From an uncultured Alphaproteobacteria bacterium (GTDB lineage Bacteria > Pseudomonadota > Alphaproteobacteria > Rs-D84), in NCBI GenBank assembly GCA_944392595.1, contig CALXXD010000003.1, positions 1 through 64,000 on the forward strand: DNA of 64,000 bases. The letters run 5' to 3'. How positions within the stretch are numbered: position 1 is the stretch's first letter; each line of letters opens with the position of its first letter. Both the position numbers and the translations under genes were made by a program. The notes beneath the pieces were generated by a model that was not told the DNA's origin, ran no database searches, and worked only from the letters and a program-made list of their open reading frames with translations. Shown piece after piece: positions 8,708 to 61,318 of this stretch.

Positions 8708-10009
8708 TTATTTTTTACGAACTTCTTTGATAAATTTTTTTGCTTTGTTATATTTATCAACAGTTCCTTTCCACAGTTTTGAAATATCTTTACCCGTTTG
8801 TGTTCCAAAACTGTCATTTACACTGCCACCCAAATCTTTGGCAATTTCGCCCGCGCGCGACGCCAGGTATGTAACCAACGCACCCGTTAAAACAGTCGGA
8901 ATAAATCCAGTGTTATCCAATGTTGGTACAGATGCCGCCATATCCACGCTGACTGTTCCGGATAACAATGCCACGCAAACCGCGATAACGATTGACAACG
9001 ATACGAAATAAATTGCTGCATTAACAAATCGTTCGATTTGTTTTGACAAAGATTCAGCACTGAACAATCCCAAAAATCCATTAAATATATCGCCGGCAAT
9101 ACCCTTGTAAGACGTTTTGTCTTTTAACGTTTCTGCGATTGCGGTAAAAGGCAACATCATAACGCCCAAAAATAAATCAACAATCACACCGAACGCCATC
9201 AATGCGAACTTAAATCCATTATACAAAAACAGCACAACAAATATCGCGCCAACCAAAACGGTAAAAGCACTGTGCCCGATACCGGCCAACATCCATTGCC
9301 ATCCTGTTGATATTGCGGTTGCAAAAAATCCAGACAGTCGTGTTGGAATACATAATAATTGCGCTGCGGATTCTGGGTCCATAATCATACTGTCGGACAG
9401 ATTGTTTATTGTGTAATCGTGTATCGCCGCACATGTGTCGGGCAATTGCGTCCCCACAACCGACGCAACCGCATTCAAAATCAAATCAGATAAATAAGAC
9501 GCAATTGCAACAATCGGTCCCATAACCCACATAAATACCTGGGCTGGGCCGAACGCCAAAATGATTGACCATATCAGTATAACAGCGGCTTTTTTGACGG
9601 CCTTTTCACCAAATTCCATGGCGGACGTGCCGTTTTTAATCATGGCGTACGCTTCGAACATAATCCAAAATACGTACGCCAAAATCATAAATATAATCGC
9701 AAAGCGCACCAATGAAGAATCCAACACATCGGAAACCATGGATAATCCATTCATCAAAGCCAAACCGGCTTTGGCCTCGATTGGGACATAATCAGATACA
9801 GATTGATTTGCCTGTGGTTGAAAATTTTTAATATCTTCACTGACCGCATTATCGAATTGCAGTATATTATCCGCGGTCATCCAATTACCGTAATCACCGA
9901 TTTCTGTAAATGGCAGATTTGAAACGGCCGCCCCGGCAGATGGCATAACAATCACACACGCGACGAACGCGGTAATTATTTTTGTAAAGATTTTGTTCAA
10001 CAAACGCAT
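8708..10009 (-). CDS. VirB6/TrbL-like T4SS inner-membrane protein (paralogue A)
   Basis: A 433-residue polytopic protein with an N-terminal signal-like segment (ITAFVACVIVMPSAGA) and about six to eight hydrophobic helices. It has the general look of the VirB6/TrbL family, which forms the inner-membrane channel of type IV secretion systems. The C-terminus is soluble and Lys-rich. It is the last gene of a four-gene operon: its ATG shares one base with the stop of the gene upstream (TAATG). No CxxC motif. The assignment rests on size, topology and clustering with four similar genes; sequence divergence within this family is high. Confidence 0.75.
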   Translation of the reverse strand: MRLLNKIFTKIITAFVACVIVMPSAGAAVSNLPFTEIGDYGNWMTADNILQFDNAVSEDIKNFQPQANQSVSDYVPIEAKAGLALMNGLSMVSDVLDSSLVRFAIIFMILAYVFWIMFEAYAMIKNGTSAMEFGEKAVKKAAVILIWSIILAFGPAQVFMWVMGPIVAIASYLSDLILNAVASVVGTQLPDTCAAIHDYTINNLSDSMIMDPESAAQLLCIPTRLSGFFATAISTGWQWMLAGIGHSAFTVLVGAIFVVLFLYNGFKFALMAFGVIVDLFLGVMMLPFTAIAETLKDKTSYKGIAGDIFNGFLGLFSAESLSKQIERFVNAAIYFVSLSIVIAVCVALLSGTVSVDMAASVPTLDNTGFIPTVLTGALVTYLASRAGEIAKDLGGSVNDSFGTQTGKDISKLWKGTVDKYNKAKKFIKEVRKK

Positions 10010-11454
10010 TACTTTTTGCCCAAAGCCTCGGTCACAGATTTAACGATTTGTTTTGGCGTATTCCAGATTTTTACGCCCAATCCCTTTGCCCAGCCGCCGA
10101 AATCAAACATTTCGCCTTTGCCAATTTTATCCAATCCGAATATTGCATCCACACGCGATTTGATTACCCAGAAATACAACGCAAACAAGAATAACATTAA
10201 TATCAAGAAATCCCACCCATTGCGCATAAAATCAAACGCGCCTGGATATTCGTTTTCAACCGCATTACGTTGCGCGGTAAAGCAGTTTTTGAATAAATCT
10301 TTGTCCATTTCACCATCGACTATGGATGCTTGTTCGCACGCGGCAAATACGTTTATAACCGACATAGTTTGCGCGTCTGGATTTTCGATTTTTCGCCCCA
10401 TCATTGGCGGCAACATTGCGCTGTATCCATCCACAGGGCCGGGAAAATAGGCATCTGCGGCGTATGCAACGATGGAAAAAGTAATAATTGTTTTTAATGT
10501 AATACTGACAATTCGAATTGCGGATGTAACCAGCATATTAATTGAATTTTTTACAACCCCCGCGGCCAAAGACCAAGTCTGTTCAAACGCCGCCGCGGCC
10601 AAAATCAGCGGTAAAAAGATAACCAAAAATACCAATTTGAATACAACTGATAAAACCTGGAATACCAAATCAAACCCGATTACCAAAAACATCAGCACCA
10701 ACGCCAATCCCGCCAACCACGTAAATACGCCGCCGCCCATTCCCATCCATGCATAATTCATCAATGAAAATCCGCCTGCCGCCCCGGCCAGCATAACGCT
10801 GTTGATGTTACCCACCGCGCACATAAATGGTTGCAGTATGGGATTTAATATATCATCGCTGGATTCAGACGCATCGATTGCGCCACATTGTGTGGCGTCT
10901 GTTACGCCACTTGCGACCATGGATAATTCGGCCCCGACAAATAACACAGGCGTAATTGTGATATTCGCAACCGTTCGCAACGCGGCGGTTCCGCCCATTC
11001 CCAACGCGCCCATTAATGCACCGACAATCAATACGCGTGCGCATTGGGGCCATACTTTATCGAACCATCCCGCGAATTCCAGTTTGGTTTCTTTTTCTTT
11101 CAATTCAGCGGCGGGCTTTGCGGCGTCATAAATATATTTGCCGGTGTATATAACCAAAAACAACCCAAATCCCACAGCCAACAATATCCAAATATTATCG
11201 ACCATGGCGGTCCAAAACATTTCAGCAGCATTGCCGATTACTTCGAACAATTTTTCAATATATCCGCACAGAAAACACCCGTTTGCAGATGCTATGTCCC
11301 CATTTTCTGTGCCGATTGCGGTTAAGAAATTATTCATACTGGTATATGTAATTGCGGCCCCGCCAATGGACGAAGACAAATACCATACGCCAATCCCCAA
11401 CGCGGTTGCGCACATAATAAATTGAACTGCAAAAAGTATCAGTTTTGCTTTCAC
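10009..11454 (-). CDS. VirB6/TrbL-like T4SS inner-membrane protein (paralogue B)
   Basis: A 481-residue polytopic membrane protein, third in the operon. Hydrophobic helices include residues about 8-30, an aromatic helix WILLAVGFGLFLVIYTG, and a cluster in the middle (FLVIGFDLVFQVLSVVFKLVFLVIFLPLIL) typical of VirB6/TrbL. Before the first internal helices it carries GCFLCGYIEKLFEVIGNAA, a CxxC followed by an amphipathic stretch, matching paralogues C and E. ATG overlaps the upstream stop by 4 nt (ATGA), and its own stop overlaps the next start by 1 nt, so the operon is fully coupled. Function in substrate passage across the inner membrane is inferred. Confidence 0.78.
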   Translation of the reverse strand: MKAKLILFAVQFIMCATALGIGVWYLSSSIGGAAITYTSMNNFLTAIGTENGDIASANGCFLCGYIEKLFEVIGNAAEMFWTAMVDNIWILLAVGFGLFLVIYTGKYIYDAAKPAAELKEKETKLEFAGWFDKVWPQCARVLIVGALMGALGMGGTAALRTVANITITPVLFVGAELSMVASGVTDATQCGAIDASESSDDILNPILQPFMCAVGNINSVMLAGAAGGFSLMNYAWMGMGGGVFTWLAGLALVLMFLVIGFDLVFQVLSVVFKLVFLVIFLPLILAAAAFEQTWSLAAGVVKNSINMLVTSAIRIVSITLKTIITFSIVAYAADAYFPGPVDGYSAMLPPMMGRKIENPDAQTMSVINVFAACEQASIVDGEMDKDLFKNCFTAQRNAVENEYPGAFDFMRNGWDFLILMLFLFALYFWVIKSRVDAIFGLDKIGKGEMFDFGGWAKGLGVKIWNTPKQIVKSVTEALGKK

Positions 11455-12704
11455 TTTTTACCGCCGTCCTTGGATTCTTTCGAGTCTTTGGAATCTTTTG
11501 ATTCTTTGCCGCCCCCAGATTTATCGTCAGATTTTTCACCACCGTTCAATATATTTTTACCCGCCTGTTTGATTACGCCCAACACATCAGTTGTCAATCG
11601 CATTGCATCATTTGCCAATTGTTCGCTTAATTGTTTTTCTTCGCTTACCCCGAACGCATCCAAAACCATTTTTGTAACATTTGGTATTTGACCGTATATA
11701 AAGTTTAGCACATAAACCAATATAATGCATCCAATCAGTGTCATAGATTGCAGAGTATCTGCGGATAAATCGTCTGCAAAAATTTCCCCACTGGTAATCA
11801 TATTCATTATATCCGCCGAACTTTGGCCCGGTTCAGAAAAGAATTTTGCGATTATCACCATAATAACCGTGTATGTCAAAACAGCGGCCGCCAATGCAAT
11901 AATAGAACCGATTAATTTTTTGAATTGATTTGTTCCAACTTTGCTGCCCAGCCCAGACATCCATTTTGGTGCGTCGTCGCCTTTGAACGCAACCAGTATC
12001 AGTGATATGGGAAAGAAAAACGCAAAGAATGTCATCGCAACAATAATGTCTGCGAAATAGCAACAAAATCGCCAAAATAATTTGAAAAATCCCCACGCCA
12101 GATAAAATCCCATTATGAACAACATAATGTGTTTAATAAATGCAGAAATACCCAACAAAGCCTCTAATGAAAACGCTTTGTCCATGATTGCGATGCCCAA
12201 TTTTATATACGATTGGAATTGGGTAATTGTTGTTTTCATCAGCATTATAATACTGTCGCGCAGGGCGGGGCGGTAAAATCCATCGTCATCCATTTTTATT
12301 GGCTGGTATGTTACAAGTTCATTTACCTGGTCTGGATTTGTTCTTAACATATTTTGCGTATAAATCACCGCGACATTTGCAACAGGCTCGAAAGTAATGG
12401 TTGTAATAAATCGTGGCAACATAACGCCCAGGCTTAAAAACGCCAACGACACCAAAGAATTTATTACCAACGGCTTTAATGATTTTTGATAAAACGGATC
12501 TGTTACGCCACCCTTCATATTTTTCCAGATGGCGTTTGCCATATAACATACGAACAAAACGCAAAACAATATCATACAGAATATGACGAATTGGTCATAT
12601 ACTGCGGCGGCGGCGTTTGACACAATTTGAAACAGTCGGTCAAAAACCTCGCATCCCCAGCATTGGACAGTGGAATCGACAAAAGAATTTAATAAATTGT
12701 TCAT
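11451..12704 (-). CDS. VirB6/TrbL-like T4SS inner-membrane protein (paralogue C)
   Basis: ATG 12704 (MNNLLNSFVDS) overlaps the upstream stop as ATGA; an in-frame codon at 12722 is possible but would give a 22-nt overlap. The product is 417 residues. The N-terminus reads STVQCWGCEVFDRLFQIVSNAA: CWxC, as in paralogue E. Several TM helices follow, including a central FWRFCCYFADIIVAMTFFAFFFP. The extreme C-terminus is a run of Lys/Asp/Ser/Gly (KDSKDSKESKDGGKK), a disordered cytoplasmic tail. Family call: VirB6/TrbL, by topology and neighbours. Confidence 0.78.
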   Translation of the reverse strand: MNNLLNSFVDSTVQCWGCEVFDRLFQIVSNAAAAVYDQFVIFCMILFCVLFVCYMANAIWKNMKGGVTDPFYQKSLKPLVINSLVSLAFLSLGVMLPRFITTITFEPVANVAVIYTQNMLRTNPDQVNELVTYQPIKMDDDGFYRPALRDSIIMLMKTTITQFQSYIKLGIAIMDKAFSLEALLGISAFIKHIMLFIMGFYLAWGFFKLFWRFCCYFADIIVAMTFFAFFFPISLILVAFKGDDAPKWMSGLGSKVGTNQFKKLIGSIIALAAAVLTYTVIMVIIAKFFSEPGQSSADIMNMITSGEIFADDLSADTLQSMTLIGCIILVYVLNFIYGQIPNVTKMVLDAFGVSEEKQLSEQLANDAMRLTTDVLGVIKQAGKNILNGGEKSDDKSGGGKESKDSKDSKESKDGGKK

Positions 12705-13978
12705 TTTTTCTTTCTTATCCACTTGATTGCTTTGTTAATTCCACTTCCGGCGGATTTGGCTTTCTTTGCCCATACTTTGGCATCGCCGCGCGCCTGATTA
12801 TACAGCGCATCCATGCCTTTGCCGACATAATCGTTTAACCGTTCGCGTGTCATATCAAATATGCGGAACATTAAATAGAATGTTAATATGGACGATAACC
12901 ACAATACAGAATGTTCGCCAAATCCCAACGAAGTGGTATTTGCAGCCATTGGCAAATTGGTCGCAGATGTGCCACCGGCCGCAACAACAAATACAGACGA
13001 ATTCCACTGGAACAATGATTTAATTATTGCGATATTAACGCATAGTATAAACGCGCATGCAATCATGGTTACTATGATTTTTTGTAATGCTTGCGTAATG
13101 CCGCCGAATGCAGGCCAAATATCCAGCCACTTGTCGTTTGGTTTTACAACGTATGCCAAGACTTGGAATGGATACAATACCAACGCCATACCAAAATTAA
13201 ATATTGCCTGGATAATCAGCAATGCCATAAACAGATTGCTGGATACAAACGTGGAAACCAATAATATCCCAGTTATTAAATTCAAGAAATCTTCCCCGCC
13301 ATGCGGAATCAACGTTATCATTCCGCGCAGACCTGTTTTTATAAACTCAAATCCGCGTTTTATGATTTGATTATTTGCGTGGGATAAATCTGATACAGGC
13401 TGTACTAAAAATTCACAACTTTCTTGGCTTATCCATCCCTGTTGAATGACGGATTGCGGGCAAGACATTACCGGTGCGGTGCCTGTCTCGTTAATGGATT
13501 TTGTTATGCTTTCGGTATAAATTGCGCCGAATTGCAAAAAAGGATTGATTAACCATTCGGTTAAATACACAGGTTTTACCTGTAACAGCACTGTCACCGC
13601 CACGATTGCGCGAATGGTGGGTTTTAATAAATTTTCTGCGATGGTAAAACCGCCTATGCCGCCCCCGGTCATTTCGCCGCCACCTGAAAATCCGAAAAAC
13701 GATACCCAGATTTTTGGAAAATACATTTTTATCAAATACAGCGACAGTGATATAATTAAAAATCCCCACACCAGAATATAAATAACACCGTCCCCGTTGC
13801 CCACAAAGAAATCATACCCGCCCGTGGCAACCGTCATCAGTGCGTCCAATATTGTCGGAATCAGTGGTGCCAAATTTAACGCATCAACAATTGCATAATT
13901 TGCGGCATGTGCGCCAATTGGCGTCAGCACAGCCATCGCCAAAATCGAGAATAAAAACAGGCGTTTTAAGAAAAACAT
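12701..13978 (-). CDS. VirB6/TrbL-like T4SS inner-membrane protein (paralogue D)
   Basis: First gene of the four-gene minus-strand operon. ATG 13978 follows a run of six G (weak but usable ribosome site); GTG 13987 is the alternative. About 425 residues: signal-like N-terminus (FLFSILAMAVLTPIGAHA), a helix around VIYILVWGFLIISLSLYLI, a loop with Cys (SCPQSVIQQGWISQESCEF), then further TM helices, and a basic C-terminus (RGDAKVWAKKAKSAGSG). It lacks the N-terminal CxxC of B, C and E. Expression probably starts at the extended -10 at 14007-14015, shared through a palindrome with the divergent paralogue E. Confidence 0.77.
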   Translation of the reverse strand: MFFLKRLFLFSILAMAVLTPIGAHAANYAIVDALNLAPLIPTILDALMTVATGGYDFFVGNGDGVIYILVWGFLIISLSLYLIKMYFPKIWVSFFGFSGGGEMTGGGIGGFTIAENLLKPTIRAIVAVTVLLQVKPVYLTEWLINPFLQFGAIYTESITKSINETGTAPVMSCPQSVIQQGWISQESCEFLVQPVSDLSHANNQIIKRGFEFIKTGLRGMITLIPHGGEDFLNLITGILLVSTFVSSNLFMALLIIQAIFNFGMALVLYPFQVLAYVVKPNDKWLDIWPAFGGITQALQKIIVTMIACAFILCVNIAIIKSLFQWNSSVFVVAAGGTSATNLPMAANTTSLGFGEHSVLWLSSILTFYLMFRIFDMTRERLNDYVGKGMDALYNQARGDAKVWAKKAKSAGSGINKAIKWIRKKK

Positions 13979-14006
13979 TCCCCCCACATAATTTTTTATC
14001 TTTTCA

Positions 14007-14040
14007 ATTATATCATATTTAGGGCAAAATATGATATACT
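14007..14040. promoter_or_regulatory. Divergent promoter/operator between VirB6-like genes
   Basis: A perfect 11-bp inverted repeat (ATATCATATTT 14010-14020; AAATATGATAT 14027-14037) with a 6-bp centre. Each arm overlaps an outward extended -10: TGATATACT at 14032-14040 on plus, and TGATATAAT at 14015-14007 on minus. One factor bound here could silence both transcription units. Confidence 0.65.
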
Positions 14041-14047
14041 TAAAACG

Positions 14048-15337
14048 ATGAACTGGTTAAAAAAATTTTGGATAGTTTTTTTATCGTTCTTGCCATTTTC
14101 GGCTGGGGCGGTTGTGCCGTTTGTTATTGCGGGTATTGCGGGCGTCGGTGCAATTGCTGGTTTTTCAATATACAGAACGGCTGCGCCCGTTAATATGGCG
14201 GACGCGTTGAATTTCTTTTCCAGTTGTTGGTCTTGTCAAATGTTTTCAGACATAATGGCAACTATGTCCGGATTGATTCCGCGCGTCTATAATGCGATTG
14301 GCGCGGTAATTGTTCCGTTTGCGGCGGTGTTATTGGCGTTATGGTTTGGTTGGAAAATTTTTTCAGGATTCATCAACGCAAAATTGGAAGAGCCTTGGTC
14401 CATCACCAGTGATCTTACAACAAAATTTATAAAATTGGGTTTTGTGACGGCGCTTTTGCTTGCGCCATTGCCACGATTGCTGACAAGCATAGTTATCGAA
14501 CCTGTGTTTAATGTGGGGCTTTCGTTAAACAGGGCAATTGCCGGCAATGACAATTTTGCAGAATGCGTTGTGGCAACCGCGTTATCAGACCCAATGGTTG
14601 CCAGTGTTGATGCGGCCCAATCGGGCGCGTTTTCACCGCGTTTGCGTCATAACCTTGCGTGCGAGGTATCAAATGTCCATCAAATGACAGGTTTGGGAAT
14701 GGCAATTGGATGGACTGTTTTGAATATGGCGTTTAACGAAGAATATATGCACACGATATTATGGGACATTCCGTTTTTCCCGAATGTTCCGATGATTTTT
14801 GTGGGATTAATGATAATATTGCTGTTTTTCTTTGCTTTGATACCTGTGCCGCTGTATTTTTTACAGGTTTTCATAACATTGTCTATGGATTTGATAATGT
14901 TGCCGTTTATGTTGCTGTCTTGGCTGTTCAAAGGTTGGAAAATTTTCCCAGACGGCGGCCGAAACATCAAAAATATGCTGGACGACGTAATAAAATCCAC
15001 TGCGGGGATTGCGCTTGTTGGCGTGTTTGTCACGTTTTCGGTTATGTTTTTGAATGCGGTGTTTGGCAAATGGGATGGCGCAGACAGATTGGCTTTGGCA
15101 TTGGAACAAAACGATTCGACAATTTTAATAGACGGATTGTTTATGCGTAACGACAGTTTGGTTACAATCATACTGATGGGTATATTTATCGCTATGTTTA
15201 TGACATCCATACCTGCACTGGTCAAAGCGTTATTTGCAAATGTGCAAATTCCAGAAAAATACTACGAATCGACCAAAAAACATATCGATACCATGTGGAA
15301 AAACGCGAAAAAGTGGTATTCCTCACTAAAAAATTAA
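14048..15337 (+). CDS. VirB6/TrbL-like T4SS inner-membrane protein (paralogue E)
   Basis: Divergent from the other four. 429 residues: signal-like N-terminus (WIVFLSFLPFSAGAVVPFVIAGIAG), then FFSSCWSCQMFSDIMATMSGLIP with CWxC before a helix. Several TM segments follow, including a strongly hydrophobic stretch near 250-290 (MIFVGLMIILLFFFALIPVPLYFLQVF). The C-terminus is soluble and basic. The ATG lies 7 nt after the -10 hexamer, so no ribosome-binding site can be on the mRNA (leaderless). Same family call and reasoning as the minus-strand set. The next gene downstream, 15406, has its own promoter. Confidence 0.78.
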   Translation: MNWLKKFWIVFLSFLPFSAGAVVPFVIAGIAGVGAIAGFSIYRTAAPVNMADALNFFSSCWSCQMFSDIMATMSGLIPRVYNAIGAVIVPFAAVLLALWFGWKIFSGFINAKLEEPWSITSDLTTKFIKLGFVTALLLAPLPRLLTSIVIEPVFNVGLSLNRAIAGNDNFAECVVATALSDPMVASVDAAQSGAFSPRLRHNLACEVSNVHQMTGLGMAIGWTVLNMAFNEEYMHTILWDIPFFPNVPMIFVGLMIILLFFFALIPVPLYFLQVFITLSMDLIMLPFMLLSWLFKGWKIFPDGGRNIKNMLDDVIKSTAGIALVGVFVTFSVMFLNAVFGKWDGADRLALALEQNDSTILIDGLFMRNDSLVTIILMGIFIAMFMTSIPALVKALFANVQIPEKYYESTKKHIDTMWKNAKKWYSSLKN

Positions 15338-15405: not shown

Positions 15406-15924
15406 ATGAAGCAGTTTCCGATTCTTTATTGGCCGCGCAAAACAACCGCAGATGCGGATTATCAGTTATCGCGCAAGGTTATAAATACTGCCGCGGGCGT
15501 GATGCCCGATGTTGTGACCGGCAATGTGGATTTGATGGAAATCTTTGAAAAAAATCCAAATGCGACGGTATATTATCCTGTGTTTTGCGAATCGACCGGT
15601 TGGTGGGGGGAATTGTTGGGCACGTCCGTGGTTGTAACGGACAAATTAATCATATCGCCTGAATGTCAATTAATGGTCATAGAAAACAAATCAGCGGCAT
15701 CGCATACGACGCGTGCGGGTAAAAATCAGTTGCTGGCGGCGGAAATATATCCGGCCAGCGGTTTTTTCAAAAAAATGAATTCAGGCATTGCCACGGTTGC
15801 GGATATGTTGGCAACGGATGCGGGCACGATTTTGGCTTTGTTCGCGGGGCGCAGTCCGACCCAGTTTATAAATGTTCTGGAATCGACCGGCAATTCATAT
15901 TTGGGATGTATTGGCCGGTATTAA
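15406..15924 (+). CDS. Protein of unknown function beside the VirB6-like genes
   Basis: 172 residues, no signal peptide and no TM helix. I do not recognise a family. The N-terminus MKQFPILYWPRKTTADADYQLS is followed by a mixed alpha/beta sequence with YYPVFCESTGWWGELLGTSVVV and VIENKSAASHTTRAGKNQ. A strong extended -10 sits 8 nt upstream of the ATG, so the gene is real and probably translated from a leaderless mRNA. Codon use matches the neighbours. It lies between the VirB6-like cluster and rpmE but is separated from rpmE by a separate promoter, so it is monocistronic. A link to secretion is only by position. Confidence 0.75.
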   Translation: MKQFPILYWPRKTTADADYQLSRKVINTAAGVMPDVVTGNVDLMEIFEKNPNATVYYPVFCESTGWWGELLGTSVVVTDKLIISPECQLMVIENKSAASHTTRAGKNQLLAAEIYPASGFFKKMNSGIATVADMLATDAGTILALFAGRSPTQFINVLESTGNSYLGCIGRY

Positions 15925-56312: not shown

Positions 56313-58853
56313 CTACAATATCGGTGGGAAGCAATCGCCACCACTATCAGGGCAACAGTTGAATCCTTGTTTCCCCATGTCGGTATAAGTTTCGCCCGGA
56401 CAGCAACCATATTCATCGGGCAACGCGCCGCCTTCACACGTAATAACGGCTTCTTGGGTTGCTGCGGTGTCGGTGGTGGTGGATGCAAATGGATTTTGTA
56501 TTGCACCATCATCGTATGTCAGACCCAATACTTCTTCGTTATACTTTTGATCGCCCTGAATCCCAGACAGACTGCCATACGATACAAATGAATCGTTGCT
56601 GGTTACGTCACTGTACGAGTCCTGGAACTGTTTTTGCTGATCTTGATACAGCGCGTCTTGACGTGCATTATTAATCGCCTGGTAATTCAGTGATTCACAG
56701 AATGTTAAAACAGTTCTGTAATCATAGCCTGCTTCATAAACCCTTTGGTTAGTGTCCTCATCATTTGATAATGTCCATTTACCGTTACTATCTTTTGTAC
56801 AAAACTCAGACATCATGTTAAATGAACGTGCCTGGCCCACCCAAGATCCATCAGCATAATCTATATTAACCAGATTTTCTGCATTCCATCCTTCAAAACG
56901 TTCATTTCTGTCATCAGTTGCCTTACCAGAGCTTGATCTGACATTTTCAACCGAGCATTCTTTGGTATTATCATGACCGCATGTAATTACCAAATCAGTT
57001 GGTGAATATACCGTAATACGTGTTCCGGCGGCAATTGAAAATGGCGGCACAGTATTATCCATCGCATCAACCAGTAATTTTTGTGCGACTTGATTCCATG
57101 CGGTAATCAATTCTTGCTTTGCCAATTCAGACGAACGCACAGTCCCGCTTTGCACGACGGTGTTATTATCCAAATCGATTTGATTTATAAAAGTATCTGC
57201 AATTGGCGCAATCATATTAACCGCGGCCGGCACGATTGCGGTAATCATCGGCATAACCAATTGTTCAACATAATCCGTGCTGCCGTAACCAGGGACGCCG
57301 GCGCGACCCTGGGAATCGCCAGAAAACGGCATACTGTTGGTGTCTGCAAAATTAAATTCAACGCCACTGGGCAATATAAATTGATACCATTTTATTTCCA
57401 TCCGACCAACCGTTTGATATGGCCCCGGTAAATTCCCGGTAACAAAACCCAACATCAATGTTCCAGTTGGTATTACGATTGTGCGACCATCATCCGCATA
57501 TACATTGCGATCAACGGTTGCGCGCACAGGCAACAAATTGCCGTTTTCGTACAATTTTGGATCGGCGCGAACCTCGGACACGATTGTTGCCGGAATTGGT
57601 TTATATTGACGCAATACAAATTTTCTGTCAAACGGGTCGGATGAAAATACTGCACTACCACTGGTGCCAATAATCACATCATCGGTTGGCGCCGGTTCCA
57701 CCAGTCGCTTAAAACCGTTACCGCTGGGGGCGTTTGCGCCAATTAGTTGCTCAGTGGTCAGCTGAATTGCCTTATTCACAGTTTTTGTTGTTGCTGGATT
57801 TGATAATTGTGGCAACGTACCATTCATAATGGTTGTATATCCGATGTGTTCCGCATCGGTTCCTATTTTTTGGCCTGGGTTATTTATATCTGTAATAATT
57901 CCGTTATCAGGATTATACACGCCGGTTGGATTTTCGCATTCAGTATCTGAAAACGGGTGATAATAATACGAACCTCCACTTGGGCGAATCCATCCGCTTT
58001 GCACACCCGACAAATTATATGCGGGCATTGCGAAATCAGAACAAGCCTCGGGCGGGCGAACATAATCCGGTTCGTCGTCATACAGCGCAGTATTTGATTG
58101 TACCGGGGTTGGTTCGAACAATATCTCTTCGTCAAACGAAAAATCATTTTCGGGTAACAATAAATCCAAATCTTCCTGGAAACTTGTGGTTGGCTCTGAA
58201 TCTATTTCATCGATTTCAATCGGTTCTGGGTCGAATGTTTGCTCGGGCTCGGGCACAGCCACGGGTTCAGGTTCCACAATCGGTTCAGGTTCCACAATCG
58301 GTTCGGGCTCTGAAACCTTGATCGGCTCGGGTTCAGGTTCGGGTTCAGGCAACTTTTGTGCCACCGCCCCCAGTGTTAATATAACTTTGGTGCTTTCCTG
58401 CATTTTATCAGGCTCGTCCGCGCCACGCCAATCGATATACAGTGCATCCGCGTGCGTATCGGCGGCGACGGTTGGTGTGTATGTTATTGTGATGGAACAA
58501 GACACAGTGTCATCGATTTTCATCGGTGTGCATGTTTCGGCACGGGTCAATCCATCGGCTGCATTTGCAAAACGAACGTCCGTAACGCGCACAGGCGCAT
58601 TTGCCGATAACTGTAATGTTGCGGTCGCCGTTTCACCCACCGTCACATTTGATAAATCAACTGCGTCGGGCGAAACGTATAATTCCAATGCAATATCGTT
58701 TTCATTTGGAATTACCGGTTCAGCATCTTTGCGGGTTAATAATAATATTAATAAAATTACCACCACAACAAATGCCGCCGCCAGCAACAACCATTGAATA
58801 TGCTTTGGCGTATTTTTCCGCAAATCAGAAAATTGCTTTTTTAACTTGTTCAT
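56313..58853 (-). CDS. virB10: VirB10/TrbI-like T4SS protein with Cys-rich C-terminal tail
   Basis: 846 residues from ATG 58853 (MNKLKKQFSDL); the open frame beyond encodes the AGTAAC repeats, not protein. One TM helix (WLLLAAAFVVVVILLILLL). Then a PE-repeat linker (PEPEPEPIKVSEPEPIVEPE and so on). From residue about 380, the VirB10/TrbI beta-barrel region: LRQYKPIPATIVSEVRADPKL, VPVRATVDRNVYADDGRTIVIPTGTLMLGF, IKWYQFILPSGVEF, PFSIAAGTRITVYSPTDLVI. The C-terminus is an added Cys-rich tail with six or so Cys (CEGGALPDEYGCCPGETY). VirB10 spans both membranes and senses energy from VirB4/VirB11/VirD4. Confidence 0.88.
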   Translation of the reverse strand: MNKLKKQFSDLRKNTPKHIQWLLLAAAFVVVVILLILLLTRKDAEPVIPNENDIALELYVSPDAVDLSNVTVGETATATLQLSANAPVRVTDVRFANAADGLTRAETCTPMKIDDTVSCSITITYTPTVAADTHADALYIDWRGADEPDKMQESTKVILTLGAVAQKLPEPEPEPEPIKVSEPEPIVEPEPIVEPEPVAVPEPEQTFDPEPIEIDEIDSEPTTSFQEDLDLLLPENDFSFDEEILFEPTPVQSNTALYDDEPDYVRPPEACSDFAMPAYNLSGVQSGWIRPSGGSYYYHPFSDTECENPTGVYNPDNGIITDINNPGQKIGTDAEHIGYTTIMNGTLPQLSNPATTKTVNKAIQLTTEQLIGANAPSGNGFKRLVEPAPTDDVIIGTSGSAVFSSDPFDRKFVLRQYKPIPATIVSEVRADPKLYENGNLLPVRATVDRNVYADDGRTIVIPTGTLMLGFVTGNLPGPYQTVGRMEIKWYQFILPSGVEFNFADTNSMPFSGDSQGRAGVPGYGSTDYVEQLVMPMITAIVPAAVNMIAPIADTFINQIDLDNNTVVQSGTVRSSELAKQELITAWNQVAQKLLVDAMDNTVPPFSIAAGTRITVYSPTDLVITCGHDNTKECSVENVRSSSGKATDDRNERFEGWNAENLVNIDYADGSWVGQARSFNMMSEFCTKDSNGKWTLSNDEDTNQRVYEAGYDYRTVLTFCESLNYQAINNARQDALYQDQQKQFQDSYSDVTSNDSFVSYGSLSGIQGDQKYNEEVLGLTYDDGAIQNPFASTTTDTAATQEAVITCEGGALPDEYGCCPGETYTDMGKQGFNCCPDSGGDCFPPIL

Positions 58854-58903
58854 AATCAACCGCCATTTTCCCCACGAGTAACGAGTCGCGAGTAACCAGT
58901 AAC

Positions 58904-60439
58904 TTACTGTACCCGCACGACACTGCAACTTGTGCCACTGAATTGTAATAATTTATTGCACAATTCTTGGGCCGTGGTTACATCTGATAATGGGCCAATG
59001 CGCAGACGATACAAACGCGCGGCCGAAGAATCAGAACCCAAATCACCAACGCCTTGCTCATCAACGGCAAAGAACACCATATCTTTATACGGGGTCAAAA
59101 TGCCTTGGCCGTCGGCACCACTGAACTTGGCCAACAAATTCGCCCAATAATCATCCAACGCCTTGACGGATGTATCAGATTTCAGTTCCACCGCCACACC
59201 GGATTGATTGCTTGTAATCAGCGGAATGTTCGATTGGGGCAAGAATGATCCAGCGGTCAATCTTTCTGTTGGAATCATATTCACGCCGCTTGTACCGCCA
59301 CCGGTCGTGCCACCATAAATTTGTGCCGGCATCGCATAACCCGCGGGTGCATAGTACCCAGACGTTGTGCCACCCATCTGCATATTTCCCAACATCATCG
59401 GCGTCGTTGTATATCCATTCGCAGACGCATTAATTGCATTCATATCAGACGTATATGCGATATTATTCAATGATTGCCCAGACATAATGGATTGTGCAAC
59501 GTTTGCCTCGGCCAATGCCATAACAGACGCTGTGTCGGCAATCAAGAACGGCTTTTCACGTTTTTTGATACAAACAATACGTTGCCCACTGCGCAGAACC
59601 ATATCGCCAACAGCCTCGACAATCAGCAATCGTCCGTCTTCGCCATCTGTGCGGAATCCGACGGGGGATTCGCCGCCTTCGATTAACAGCGATACAACCG
59701 GGCGTTGTGTCATGGATATAACCTTGTCCCCGAAATCGATATATGTAAATATCTGGTCGCGCCATACGCGTTCAGGCGCAATTACGTAATCATCTGGGTT
59801 CGGAACAAATATGTCCAAATCGAAACGGAATTCAGACGGATCAATCTTCATTGATTTAATCCATCCGTAATCTTCGCCATCAACGCCAACTGTGTTTGAT
59901 GAACTGGACGGTGCGCTGAAAATAGATGCAGACCCACTGTTTGCATTAACCGCGCCCGATGAAGTAACCAACGCACCATTTCCATCCAATATAACATCAA
60001 CCTGGGAATAAGTAATGTCGCTGGAATTAGAAGGCTCGCTGCGCAAATAGAATGTATAAACATTACCTGATTCACCCGTTACAATCAGATTTGTATCCGA
60101 ACCCTGGTTGGTGACGGCGGGCGTGATGTACATGGTATTACTGCCTTTGGCGGTTTGAATACTGAACAATCCATCGTTGCCGACGACTGCGTCTGCAATT
60201 TTTTCACCGTTTGGCAATGTAATTAATGTAGTCATCCCATTGCGTAATTTTACGGGCAGCATACTGCCTTTGGTCCAGGTCAATTGTGCGTATCCTGGTT
60301 TCAAACTGCCGTCGGCCATATTGGCGGTTGGGTTATCCCACGCGCTTTGTATGCCATATTCCGTGGCCGAAGCGTTCGCACACAGCATCGCGATGCACAA
60401 CACAGATACATTTAACTTTAACAGATTTGCAAACGTCAT
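58904..60439 (-). CDS. virB9: VirB9/CagX-like T4SS protein fused to a SPOR-like domain
   Basis: 511 residues, signal peptide (NVSVLCIAMLCANASA). VirB9 N-domain: ITLPNGEKIADAVVGNDGLFSIQTAKGSNTMYITP and VYTFYLRSE. C-domain: PERVWRDQIFTYIDFGDKVISMTQRPVVSLLIEGGE to RSGQRIVCI. After a Gly/Met/Ser-rich linker (about 320-400) the end reads YRLRIGPLSDVTTAQELCNKLLQFSGTSCSVV, a SPOR-like beta-alpha motif. VirB9 caps the outer-membrane core with VirB7 and VirB10. GGAAGGAAG lies before the ATG. No VirB7 seen. Confidence 0.85.
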   Translation of the reverse strand: MTFANLLKLNVSVLCIAMLCANASATEYGIQSAWDNPTANMADGSLKPGYAQLTWTKGSMLPVKLRNGMTTLITLPNGEKIADAVVGNDGLFSIQTAKGSNTMYITPAVTNQGSDTNLIVTGESGNVYTFYLRSEPSNSSDITYSQVDVILDGNGALVTSSGAVNANSGSASIFSAPSSSSNTVGVDGEDYGWIKSMKIDPSEFRFDLDIFVPNPDDYVIAPERVWRDQIFTYIDFGDKVISMTQRPVVSLLIEGGESPVGFRTDGEDGRLLIVEAVGDMVLRSGQRIVCIKKREKPFLIADTASVMALAEANVAQSIMSGQSLNNIAYTSDMNAINASANGYTTTPMMLGNMQMGGTTSGYYAPAGYAMPAQIYGGTTGGGTSGVNMIPTERLTAGSFLPQSNIPLITSNQSGVAVELKSDTSVKALDDYWANLLAKFSGADGQGILTPYKDMVFFAVDEQGVGDLGSDSSAARLYRLRIGPLSDVTTAQELCNKLLQFSGTSCSVVRVQ

Positions 60440-60462: not shown

Positions 60463-61164
60463 TTACTGGATATTGCCGGTCGTTTCCAGATAACCGGTAT
60501 CCAGCGGGTCGCCATTGCCAGATTCAATGATGTATTCTGAAACGCGCACCCCCAGCGGATTATTCAAACGATCAACCCATTTCATCGTTGTGCCATCCGC
60601 CATATCCAATTTCACCCTTATTTTATAATCTTTTTTGGCCATCTGTCTATTACTATCTGAACAAAAATACTTAAAACTTACAGCATATTCGTTATTATCA
60701 GGATTTCTGGGTTCTATTTCGATAGCACCCGTTTCAAATTCGACCGAACAAGAAAACTCAAAATCAGGCACGCCACTCATCCACGCGTTCCACATATTGG
60801 TTTTTGTGAATTCGTTATATATTTCCGGACTGGACCAGGCATTTACGACGCCTGTGTCATCGTTGCTCCATTTTTCGCGCATTATGCGCGCATCAGGCAC
60901 AATTTCGTTGCGCGCACGAATGTATTCGCGAATGAAAGAACGCTTGAAATTTTCCAACATATCGCCGTCATTCGGCACCATTTCAGCCACCACAATATCC
61001 AAATTGTTTTGTGGTGCAGTCATTAAAAAGAACACCTGGGGTCTGTCCAACGGGTACATATTATACAATGTAACGCCCAGCACGCCCAGCACAACAATCA
61101 TTGCGGCGAATACGAAAACCAGCAATCTGGACAGTAAAACGGGCGGTTCTATACGTGTTGCCAC
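60463..61164 (-). CDS. virB8: VirB8/TrbF-like T4SS protein
   Basis: First gene of the operon. GTG 61164 preceded by AGGAGAGG (9 nt) gives 233 residues; the ATG at 61266 would need a frame through repeat DNA. One TM helix (LLSRLLVFVFAAMIVVLGVLGVTLY). The periplasmic NTF2-like domain: FKRSFIREYIRARNEIVPDARIMREKW, VNAWSSPEIYNEFTKTN, and a C-terminal IRVKLDMADGTTMKWVDRLNNPLGVRVSEYIIE, typical of VirB8 (NPLGxxVxxY). Nucleates the inner-membrane complex. Confidence 0.85.
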   Translation of the reverse strand: MATRIEPPVLLSRLLVFVFAAMIVVLGVLGVTLYNMYPLDRPQVFFLMTAPQNNLDIVVAEMVPNDGDMLENFKRSFIREYIRARNEIVPDARIMREKWSNDDTGVVNAWSSPEIYNEFTKTNMWNAWMSGVPDFEFSCSVEFETGAIEIEPRNPDNNEYAVSFKYFCSDSNRQMAKKDYKIRVKLDMADGTTMKWVDRLNNPLGVRVSEYIIESGNGDPLDTGYLETTGNIQ

Positions 61165-61217
61165 TGGGGTCCTCTCCTTACTATTAACCAGATTGTAGAA
61201 AAAAATCAGACAACTGC

Positions 61218-61318
61218 GCAAGCGAAAAATAGTTACTCGTAACTCGATTTTGTGCGTGCCGCACAAAAATAATCACGAGTAACCAGTAACGAGTAACTAG
61301 TAACTATTTTTCGCTTGC
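61218..61318. repeat. Nested inverted repeat upstream of the virB8-10 operon
   Basis: 20-bp perfect arms, 61218-61237 and 61299-61318. Inside is a hairpin TTTTGTGCG-TGC-CGCACAAAA (61248-61268) and AGTAAC repeats (61277-61304). Confidence 0.85.

Follow-up and report, generated by a model that had tools for sequence, protein, structure and literature searches.

Gene layout of the locus

The window, as the whole 64,000-nucleotide stretch of DNA analysed is called here, belongs to the genome of a gut bacterium, Candidatus Enterousia of the order Rs-D84, with a size of approximately 1 Mb. Between positions 8708 and 15337 it contains five neighbouring open reading frames (ORFs), designated A to E, each of which encodes a polytopic protein with several hydrophobic segments. 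A to D form a translationally coupled run on the minus strand whereas E is divergent. The features, including a protein of unknown family next to E, are:

8708-10009, minus strand: A, VirB6-type, 433 aa; operon position 5; signal peptide; no CxxC; central cysteine pair C193/C220
10009-11454, minus strand: B, VirB6-type, 481 aa; operon position 4; CFLC at 60-63; cysteine pairs 190/212 and 373/391
11451-12722, minus strand: C, VirB6-type; operon position 3; CWGC at 21-24; no central cysteine pair
12701-13987, minus strand: D, VirB6-type, 428 aa; operon position 2; signal peptide; no CxxC; central cysteine pair C176/C191
14048-15337, plus strand: E, VirB6-type, 429 aa; operon position 1; signal peptide; CWSC at 60-63; central cysteine pair C173/C205
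15406-15924, plus strand: protein of 172 aa directly downstream of E; possible partner, retained next to the array, with a homologue in 90 loci

C may start at a GTG, yielding 423 aa, or at the ATG at 12704, yielding 417 aa. A and B overlap by 1 nt (TAATG), B and C by 4 nt (GTGA), and C, when read from its ATG, overlaps D by 4 nt. An earlier, sequence-only reading had described five adjacent polytopic genes, four in an overlapping minus-strand operon and one divergent, with which the ORFs and junctions agree; its size range of 417-481 aa fits the ATG start of C. The paralogues are only distantly similar to one another (approximately 20% identity). B carries the motif D-x2-[YF][YF]P-x-P-x-D, which is found throughout the order, and the inversion of E relative to A-D is restricted to the genus of the source genome. 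A Pfam search with the 172-aa protein returned no match.

Relationship to VirB6 and the accompanying secretion system

The sequence-only reading had proposed that the five proteins are VirB6/TrbL-like. Direct profile searches did not reveal this relationship: PF04610 matched neither A-E nor anything else in the source genome, an NCBIfam search yielded nothing useful for A-E, and a search of PDB sequences with the E- and B-family profiles retrieved no relative. The proposal was borne out by fold comparison and by intermediate sequences. AlphaFold models were made for E and for D, which is the most divergent of the five copies; their confidence was moderate (pLDDT 72-76, pTM 0.64-0.68). In Foldseek, the top eight matches of D were all R388 TrwI/VirB6 (probability 0.99-1.00), and TrwI occupied ranks 1, 3, 4 and 5 for E. 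Alignment with VIA-align gave Z 14.2 for D over 258 residues of the 261-residue TrwI chain and Z 12.5 for E over 255 residues; the runner-up for D was a designed repeat protein (Z 10.4), and those for E were Legionella DotA (Z 9.4) and then unrelated entries (Z 7.3). D and E thus are predicted to adopt the VirB6 fold of the solved structures.

The fold comparison covered D and E; A, B and C were linked to VirB6 via profiles. Each of the five proteins was matched by all five order-level position profiles (E-values 2e-4 to 2e-54) and scored best with the profile of its own operon position, and the other ORFs of the window remained below 5 bits. Some arrays of other families reached up to 120 bits with the same profiles; the genomes that carry these arrays have PF04610 matches, of which many exceed the cut-off. 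Based on these results, A-E are paralogues of the VirB6 type, by fold and through intermediate sequences, and not members of PF04610.

Other core components of a type IV secretion system (T4SS) are encoded in the same genome. VirB3, VirB4, VirB8, VirB9, VirB10, VirB11 and VirD4 are all present, with VirB3 adjoining VirB4, and a search for VirB4, VirB11 and VirD4, which the sequence-only reading had suggested, located each of them outside the cluster. Three components lie within the window:

60463-61266, minus strand: VirB8 (PF04335, 37.5 bits)
58904-60439, minus strand: VirB9/CagX (PF03524, 72.9 bits), long, with a weakly SPOR-like C-terminus
56313-58928, minus strand: VirB10/TrbI (PF03743, 54.1 bits)

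VirB4 is represented by a single PF03135 match, as in nearly all members of the order, and VirB9 by a single PF03524 match, without duplication; VirB8 has two PF04335 matches above the cut-off. A VirB5 was not matched by PF07996, a profile that gives weak results even with probable candidates from plasmids, and the 206-aa protein encoded after virB4, considered as VirB5, has no Pfam support. The nearest plasmid VirB4 proteins (Microvirga, Erythrobacter and Sphingosinicella; 32-34% identity) were also followed up: the 420-450-aa protein of their operons is hydrophilic and not a VirB6, and the stretch searched contained no polytopic match. Taken as a whole, the data are best explained, with good probability, by the cluster being the complete VirB6 complement of one chromosomal VirB/D4-type system of the order Rs-D84 that is distinct from the rvh system of Rickettsiales.

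Array conservation, proposed subunit assembly and cysteine pairs

Of 80 named loci, 71 keep the order E-D-C-B-A, and contig ends interrupt most of the rest; the order was also observed in all genus loci of a first examination. The named genome set overlaps a second set and the counts of the two are not additive. Nearly every genus locus has each of the copies (71-80 of the 80 loci). In one genus genome (G022) no array was found, possibly owing to an assembly gap. Other families of Rs-D84 possess tandem arrays of five with large, differing hydrophilic extensions, and across the order A-E are orthologous by operon position, the positions being fixed. In the five-copy arrays of family f27, the profiles scored without position preference and yielded no position-by-position orthology with A-E.

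In solved structures, both VirB6 and DotA form pentamers, and of the helices of R388 VirB6 just two N-proximal ones are located in the membrane (PMC9259494, PMC12857230). By comparison with R388 and Dot/Icm, the VirB6-type proteins studied here would stand on the inner membrane as a central periplasmic stalk or protochannel. Four of the five begin with a signal peptide or a hydrophobic helix, which would direct the next part of the chain to the periplasm. Because the solved VirB6 rings are pentamers, it is proposed that the five paralogues may form one mixed ring, perhaps with one of each, and not five homopentamers. This is the least certain step of the model. A hetero-oligomeric VirB6 assembly, which the sequence-only reading had considered possible, is plausible in the form of a mixed pentamer. 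A pentamer with one of each is not a general rule, since an array of four members occurs within the order (L069, in a genome that is 72% complete), sister families have three to five VirB6 members per array, and Anaplasma has four VirB6 (PMC7648143).

Alternatively, each paralogue might build its own homopentameric stalk, which would result in up to five versions of the T4SS, built on a common VirB4/B8-B11/D4 frame and differing in substrate, target or stage. Such an arrangement would account for one VirB4 and one VirB9 alongside five VirB6, and it agrees with the divergence of the paralogues and the different extensions seen in other families. However, the coupling of A-D together with the fixed copy number and order suggest co-production in a fixed ratio and co-assembly, and optional alternatives would not be expected to be near-universal in the genus, as every copy is. 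Separate homopentamers appear doubtful in the light of these data.

The CxxC motifs that the sequence-only reading had noted in B (C60-FL-C63), C (C21-WG-C24) and E (C60-WS-C63), and their absence from A and D, are correct. In the genus they are near-invariant:

14225-14236, plus strand: CWSC codons of E, in 71/71 genus sequences
11266-11277, minus strand: CFLC codons of B, in 79/80 genus sequences
12651-12662, minus strand: CWGC codons of C, in 77/78 genus sequences

In the other families of the order, 43 of 54 members have a CxxC in place, compared with 1.8 expected by shuffling, and as many as five copies of an array can have the motif; the same holds for multi-VirB6 arrays of several further alphaproteobacterial families. 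The motif was found neither in classical VirB6 (0/14) nor in the two-VirB4, rvh-like group (0/6). The CxxC is therefore not a speciality of three genes of the cluster but an old, inherited trait of the whole T4SS clade, and its absence from A and D of the genus is most simply explained by secondary loss.

The spacing of a CxxC is typical of redox-active or metal-binding sites, such as the sequence-only reading had inferred, and a site of this kind might gate the channel. Support for this possibility comes from the loss of the cysteines only as a pair (both were gone in 4/4 exceptions of B) and from the position of the motif in E, where residues 60-63 fall where the VirB6 core begins (TrwI is aligned from E residue 55). 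Arguing against it are the sufficiency of three of five subunits here, and of one of five in L065, the free variation of the middle residues (CFLC, CWSC, CYLC, CTPC, CISC, CHLC), and a DsbA homologue encoded by the source genome that makes a plain disulfide possible. A redox or metal gate is on balance unlikely. A second, more conserved cysteine pair is located in the central region of A, B, D and E, at the positions listed above, and B has a third (373/391); both the N-terminal CxxC and the central cysteines behave as conserved pairs. In view of the DsbA homologue, a disulfide is at least as likely as a redox or metal role for the CxxC. Judging from their pairing, their location and the DsbA homologue, the cysteine pairs may form disulfides in the periplasm with the help of this DsbA, which would stabilise each subunit at its base and in its central region.

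Implications and comparison with known systems

Why Rickettsiales retain four or five VirB6 despite genome reduction has been a question since the description of rvh (PMC2653234). Rs-D84 represents a second reduced-genome group, with a VirB4 that is placed separately, in which the same number of VirB6 occurs in a fixed order. With VirB6 and DotA rings solved as pentamers, the idea of a mixed ring in multi-VirB6 systems becomes directly testable with subunits of 417-481 aa that lack the huge rickettsial extensions. A study of Rs-D84 infers that these bacteria depend on partners and may form intercellular connections, without naming a machine (PMC12306168); the T4SS is a candidate for it. In its most complete form, the proposal is an obligate heteropentameric stalk of five different disulfide-braced subunits, derived from one ancient array that arose separately from rvh and serving the partner-dependent life of these gut bacteria; this is put forward tentatively, as a possibility.

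The system resembles rvh in its five tandem, divergent VirB6, its scattered genes, its reduced alphaproteobacterial genome and its second VirB8, and the lack of a hit with the weak PF07996 profile would fit, but that the five genes are RvhB6a-e is very improbable, and membership was rejected on the copy numbers of VirB4 and VirB9 and on the VirB4 tree. VirB4 and VirB9 are single here, whereas rvh-like genomes with two VirB4 were recognised by the same search. In a quick tree, in which the second copies of the rvh-like type have long branches, VirB4 clusters with other families, away from the genomes with an rvh-like VirB4 pair. The VirB6 of rvh-like genomes, where the CxxC is absent, score no higher than about 4 bits with the position profiles, and the VirB6 of the genus are compact in comparison with the five RvhB6 of Rickettsia (670-1150 aa; PMC2653234).

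Legionella DotA, the pentameric protochannel of Dot/Icm (PDB 9ngy; PMC12857230), shares the VirB6-type core (Z 8.6-9.4) but is a single, much larger copy in an IVB-type system. Closer is R388 TrwI/VirB6 (PDB 7o3v, 8rt9, 8rtd), a pentameric stalk whose fold is predicted for D and E, with almost the entire TrwI chain aligned, and which belongs to a T4SS with VirB3/4/8/9/10/11/D4; R388 has one VirB6 copy instead of five, and the TrwI chains comprise 260-272 residues compared with 417-481. The copies in the multi-VirB6 arrays of other alphaproteobacterial families (e.g. L192, L197 and L198) do not match the five Rs-D84 positions one-to-one, but these arrays belong to the same VirB4 clade, consist of three to five tandem VirB6, have the CxxC in place in 38 of 44 cases and occur in genomes with PF04610 matches.

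Layout and VirB6 identity of the array

The array is real and well conserved. An ORF check of the window confirmed the five genes (8708-15337) where the sequence-only reading had placed them. The four minus-strand genes, A to D, overlap by 1, 4 and 4 nt (the C/D overlap counted from the ATG at 12704), and E is on the plus strand, 60 nt away from D. Each protein has several hydrophobic segments, as revealed by hydropathy. Scanning the alignment of B against named genomes yielded 80 loci, whose sources are recorded as uncultured Alphaproteobacteria or Proteobacteria; a handful bear the label Rickettsiales and several the name Candidatus Enterousia, including L144, Ca. Enterousia excrementavium. 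The arrangement E(-)D(+)C(+)B(+)A(+) occurs in 71 of them, and the nine remaining loci are truncated or incomplete. Other Rs-D84 families carry the five copies as a single-strand tandem array running E D C B A, so E was inverted in the genus of the window. Several copies in these families reach 600-980 aa. Most uncut arrays contain five members; locus L069, from a genome 72% complete, contains four. A neighbouring gene is also kept beside the array, with homologues in 90 of the genus loci searched (the sets overlap):

15406-15924 (+), 172-aa protein of no known family, after E

The TrbL profile PF04610, to which the sequence-only reading had looked for confirmation, matched none of the five proteins and nothing else in their genome. 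Weak BLASTP links connect A, B, C and E, with D unlinked. Profiles made for each of the five operon positions, using solely other Rs-D84 families, matched all five window proteins with E-values of 2e-54 to 2e-4. The best score of each protein was with its own position, and the remaining window ORFs scored below 5 bits. In the reversed-sequence control three position-3 sequences scored 19-22 bits, which the composition of their long extensions probably explains. With the same profiles, array proteins from other families, in genomes with PF04610 matches, scored as high as about 120 bits, and these intermediates tie the five to the TrbL/VirB6 family. The VirB6 fold was recovered in AlphaFold models of D (63 sequences, pLDDT 75.8) and E (51 sequences, pLDDT 71.9), for both of which Foldseek against the PDB ranked R388 TrwI/VirB6 first. 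VIA-align gave Z 14.2 over 258 (D) and Z 12.5 over 255 (E) residues of the 261-residue TrwI chain, and 8.6 (D) and 9.4 (E) for Legionella DotA, values that helical models can reach through arrangement alone. Weighed against this caveat, the TrwI match spans nearly the full length of the target, is clearly separated from unrelated hits and is backed by genomic context.

Conserved cysteine pairs

The N-terminal CxxC reported for B, C and E, and its absence from A and D, were borne out in the translated sequences:

B, residues 60-63, CFLC
C, residues 21-24, CWGC
E, residues 60-63, CWSC

Within the genus the motif is near-invariant (B 79/80, C 77/78, E 71/71). An in-place CxxC is found in 43 of 54 Rs-D84 members outside the genus, against 1.8 expected, and in 38 of 44 members from other alphaproteobacterial families, against 4.1 expected, but in 0/6 from rvh-like genomes and 0/14 classical single-copy VirB6 proteins. 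The motif thus goes far back in this T4SS clade and has been lost in places, and its novelty is smaller than first claimed: it is a structural feature of the whole clade. Within Rs-D84, family f4 (L074, L075, L076, L078) carries CxxC in all five copies and f6 in three of five, in the pattern of the window's genus, whereas L065 has it in B only. The alphaproteobacterial family f27 (L192, L197, L198) has five tandem VirB6 genes, all five with CxxC.

The cysteines behave as conserved pairs. In the four B sequences that lack CxxC both cysteines are gone together (4/4), although these come from related genomes and are not independent events. A second, central pair shows no exception in A, B or E and a single one in D; C lacks it and B has an additional third pair. 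As A and D have only the central pair and C only CxxC, the two occur independently, a pattern that speaks against all four cysteines forming a single metal site. Just two N-proximal helices of R388 VirB6 lie in the membrane, most of the protein being periplasmic (PMC12857230), which suggests a periplasmic location of the cysteines. The genome encodes a DsbA homologue. By this reasoning the pairs are most likely periplasmic disulfides.

The remaining T4SS genes and possible assembly

A search of the genome for VirB4, VirB11 and VirD4, which the earlier reading had left to be located, found all three; the T4SS genes and associated features of the genome are:

56-61 kb of the window, VirB8, VirB9 and VirB10 (profile matches), including
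58904-60439 (-), VirB9 homologue, long (511 aa)
56313-58928 (-), VirB10 homologue, 871 aa
contig 1, VirB3, directly upstream of VirB4
contig 1, VirB4
contig 1, VirD4 (PF02534, 172 bits)
contig 7, VirB11
contig 8, G000:C8:20335-20595 (L241), second VirB8-like gene
contig 1, L063:9002-9622 (+), 206-aa protein directly after virB4

VirB4 is present in nearly every Rs-D84 genome searched; together with the dispersal of the genes this indicates a scattered chromosomal T4SS kept across Rs-D84 and not a recent plasmid. The 206-aa protein has a signal peptide, an HExxH motif (HEDEH) and no Pfam match, and is possibly an envelope hydrolase linked to the T4SS. The C-terminus of the VirB9 homologue is weakly SPOR-like (PF05036, E 0.004, under the cut-off) and may bind peptidoglycan. 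Near its N-terminus the VirB10 homologue has a choice-of-anchor-D/ASH-like domain (NF012200, E 5e-7, under the cut-off).

The five proteins would form the stalk or protochannel of the T4SS. The solved VirB6-type rings of R388 and Dot/Icm are pentamers (PMC9259494, PMC12857230), which, together with five co-encoded, universally kept paralogues, suggests that the paralogues join in a mixed ring. A ring with one of each paralogue would not be a general rule, since sister families have three to five VirB6 copies and Anaplasma has four (PMC7648143).

Relation to rvh and other arrays

Enterousia is placed in the GTDB order Rs-D84, whose members live in the gut, have genomes of ~1 Mb and are inferred to depend on a partner (PMC12306168); the genome of the window is 976,991 bases long. 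A T4SS goes unmentioned in the main text of that paper, and no description of such an array in Rs-D84 was found in the literature searched. The nearest plasmid VirB4 proteins, from Erythrobacter, Microvirga and Sphingosinicella (L243, L244, L245), share 32-34% identity (next best about 26%), and no polytopic VirB6 was recognised within 18 kb in those three operons.

The defining features of the rvh system are several VirB6 copies, duplication of VirB4, VirB8 and VirB9, and the lack of VirB5 (PMC11077975), whereas VirB4 and VirB9 are single in the window's genome. In the VirB4 tree Rs-D84 groups with families f27, f53, f78, f8, f95, f25, f16 and f124 (SH-aLRT 99), several of which likewise carry tandem arrays of three to five VirB6 genes, with CxxC. 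The two genomes whose VirB4 pair is rvh-like, presumably Rickettsiales to judge by the pair and its lengths, lie apart from this group. T4SSs with multiple VirB6 proteins are already known, and the five-copy set of Rs-D84 is a further variant of them.
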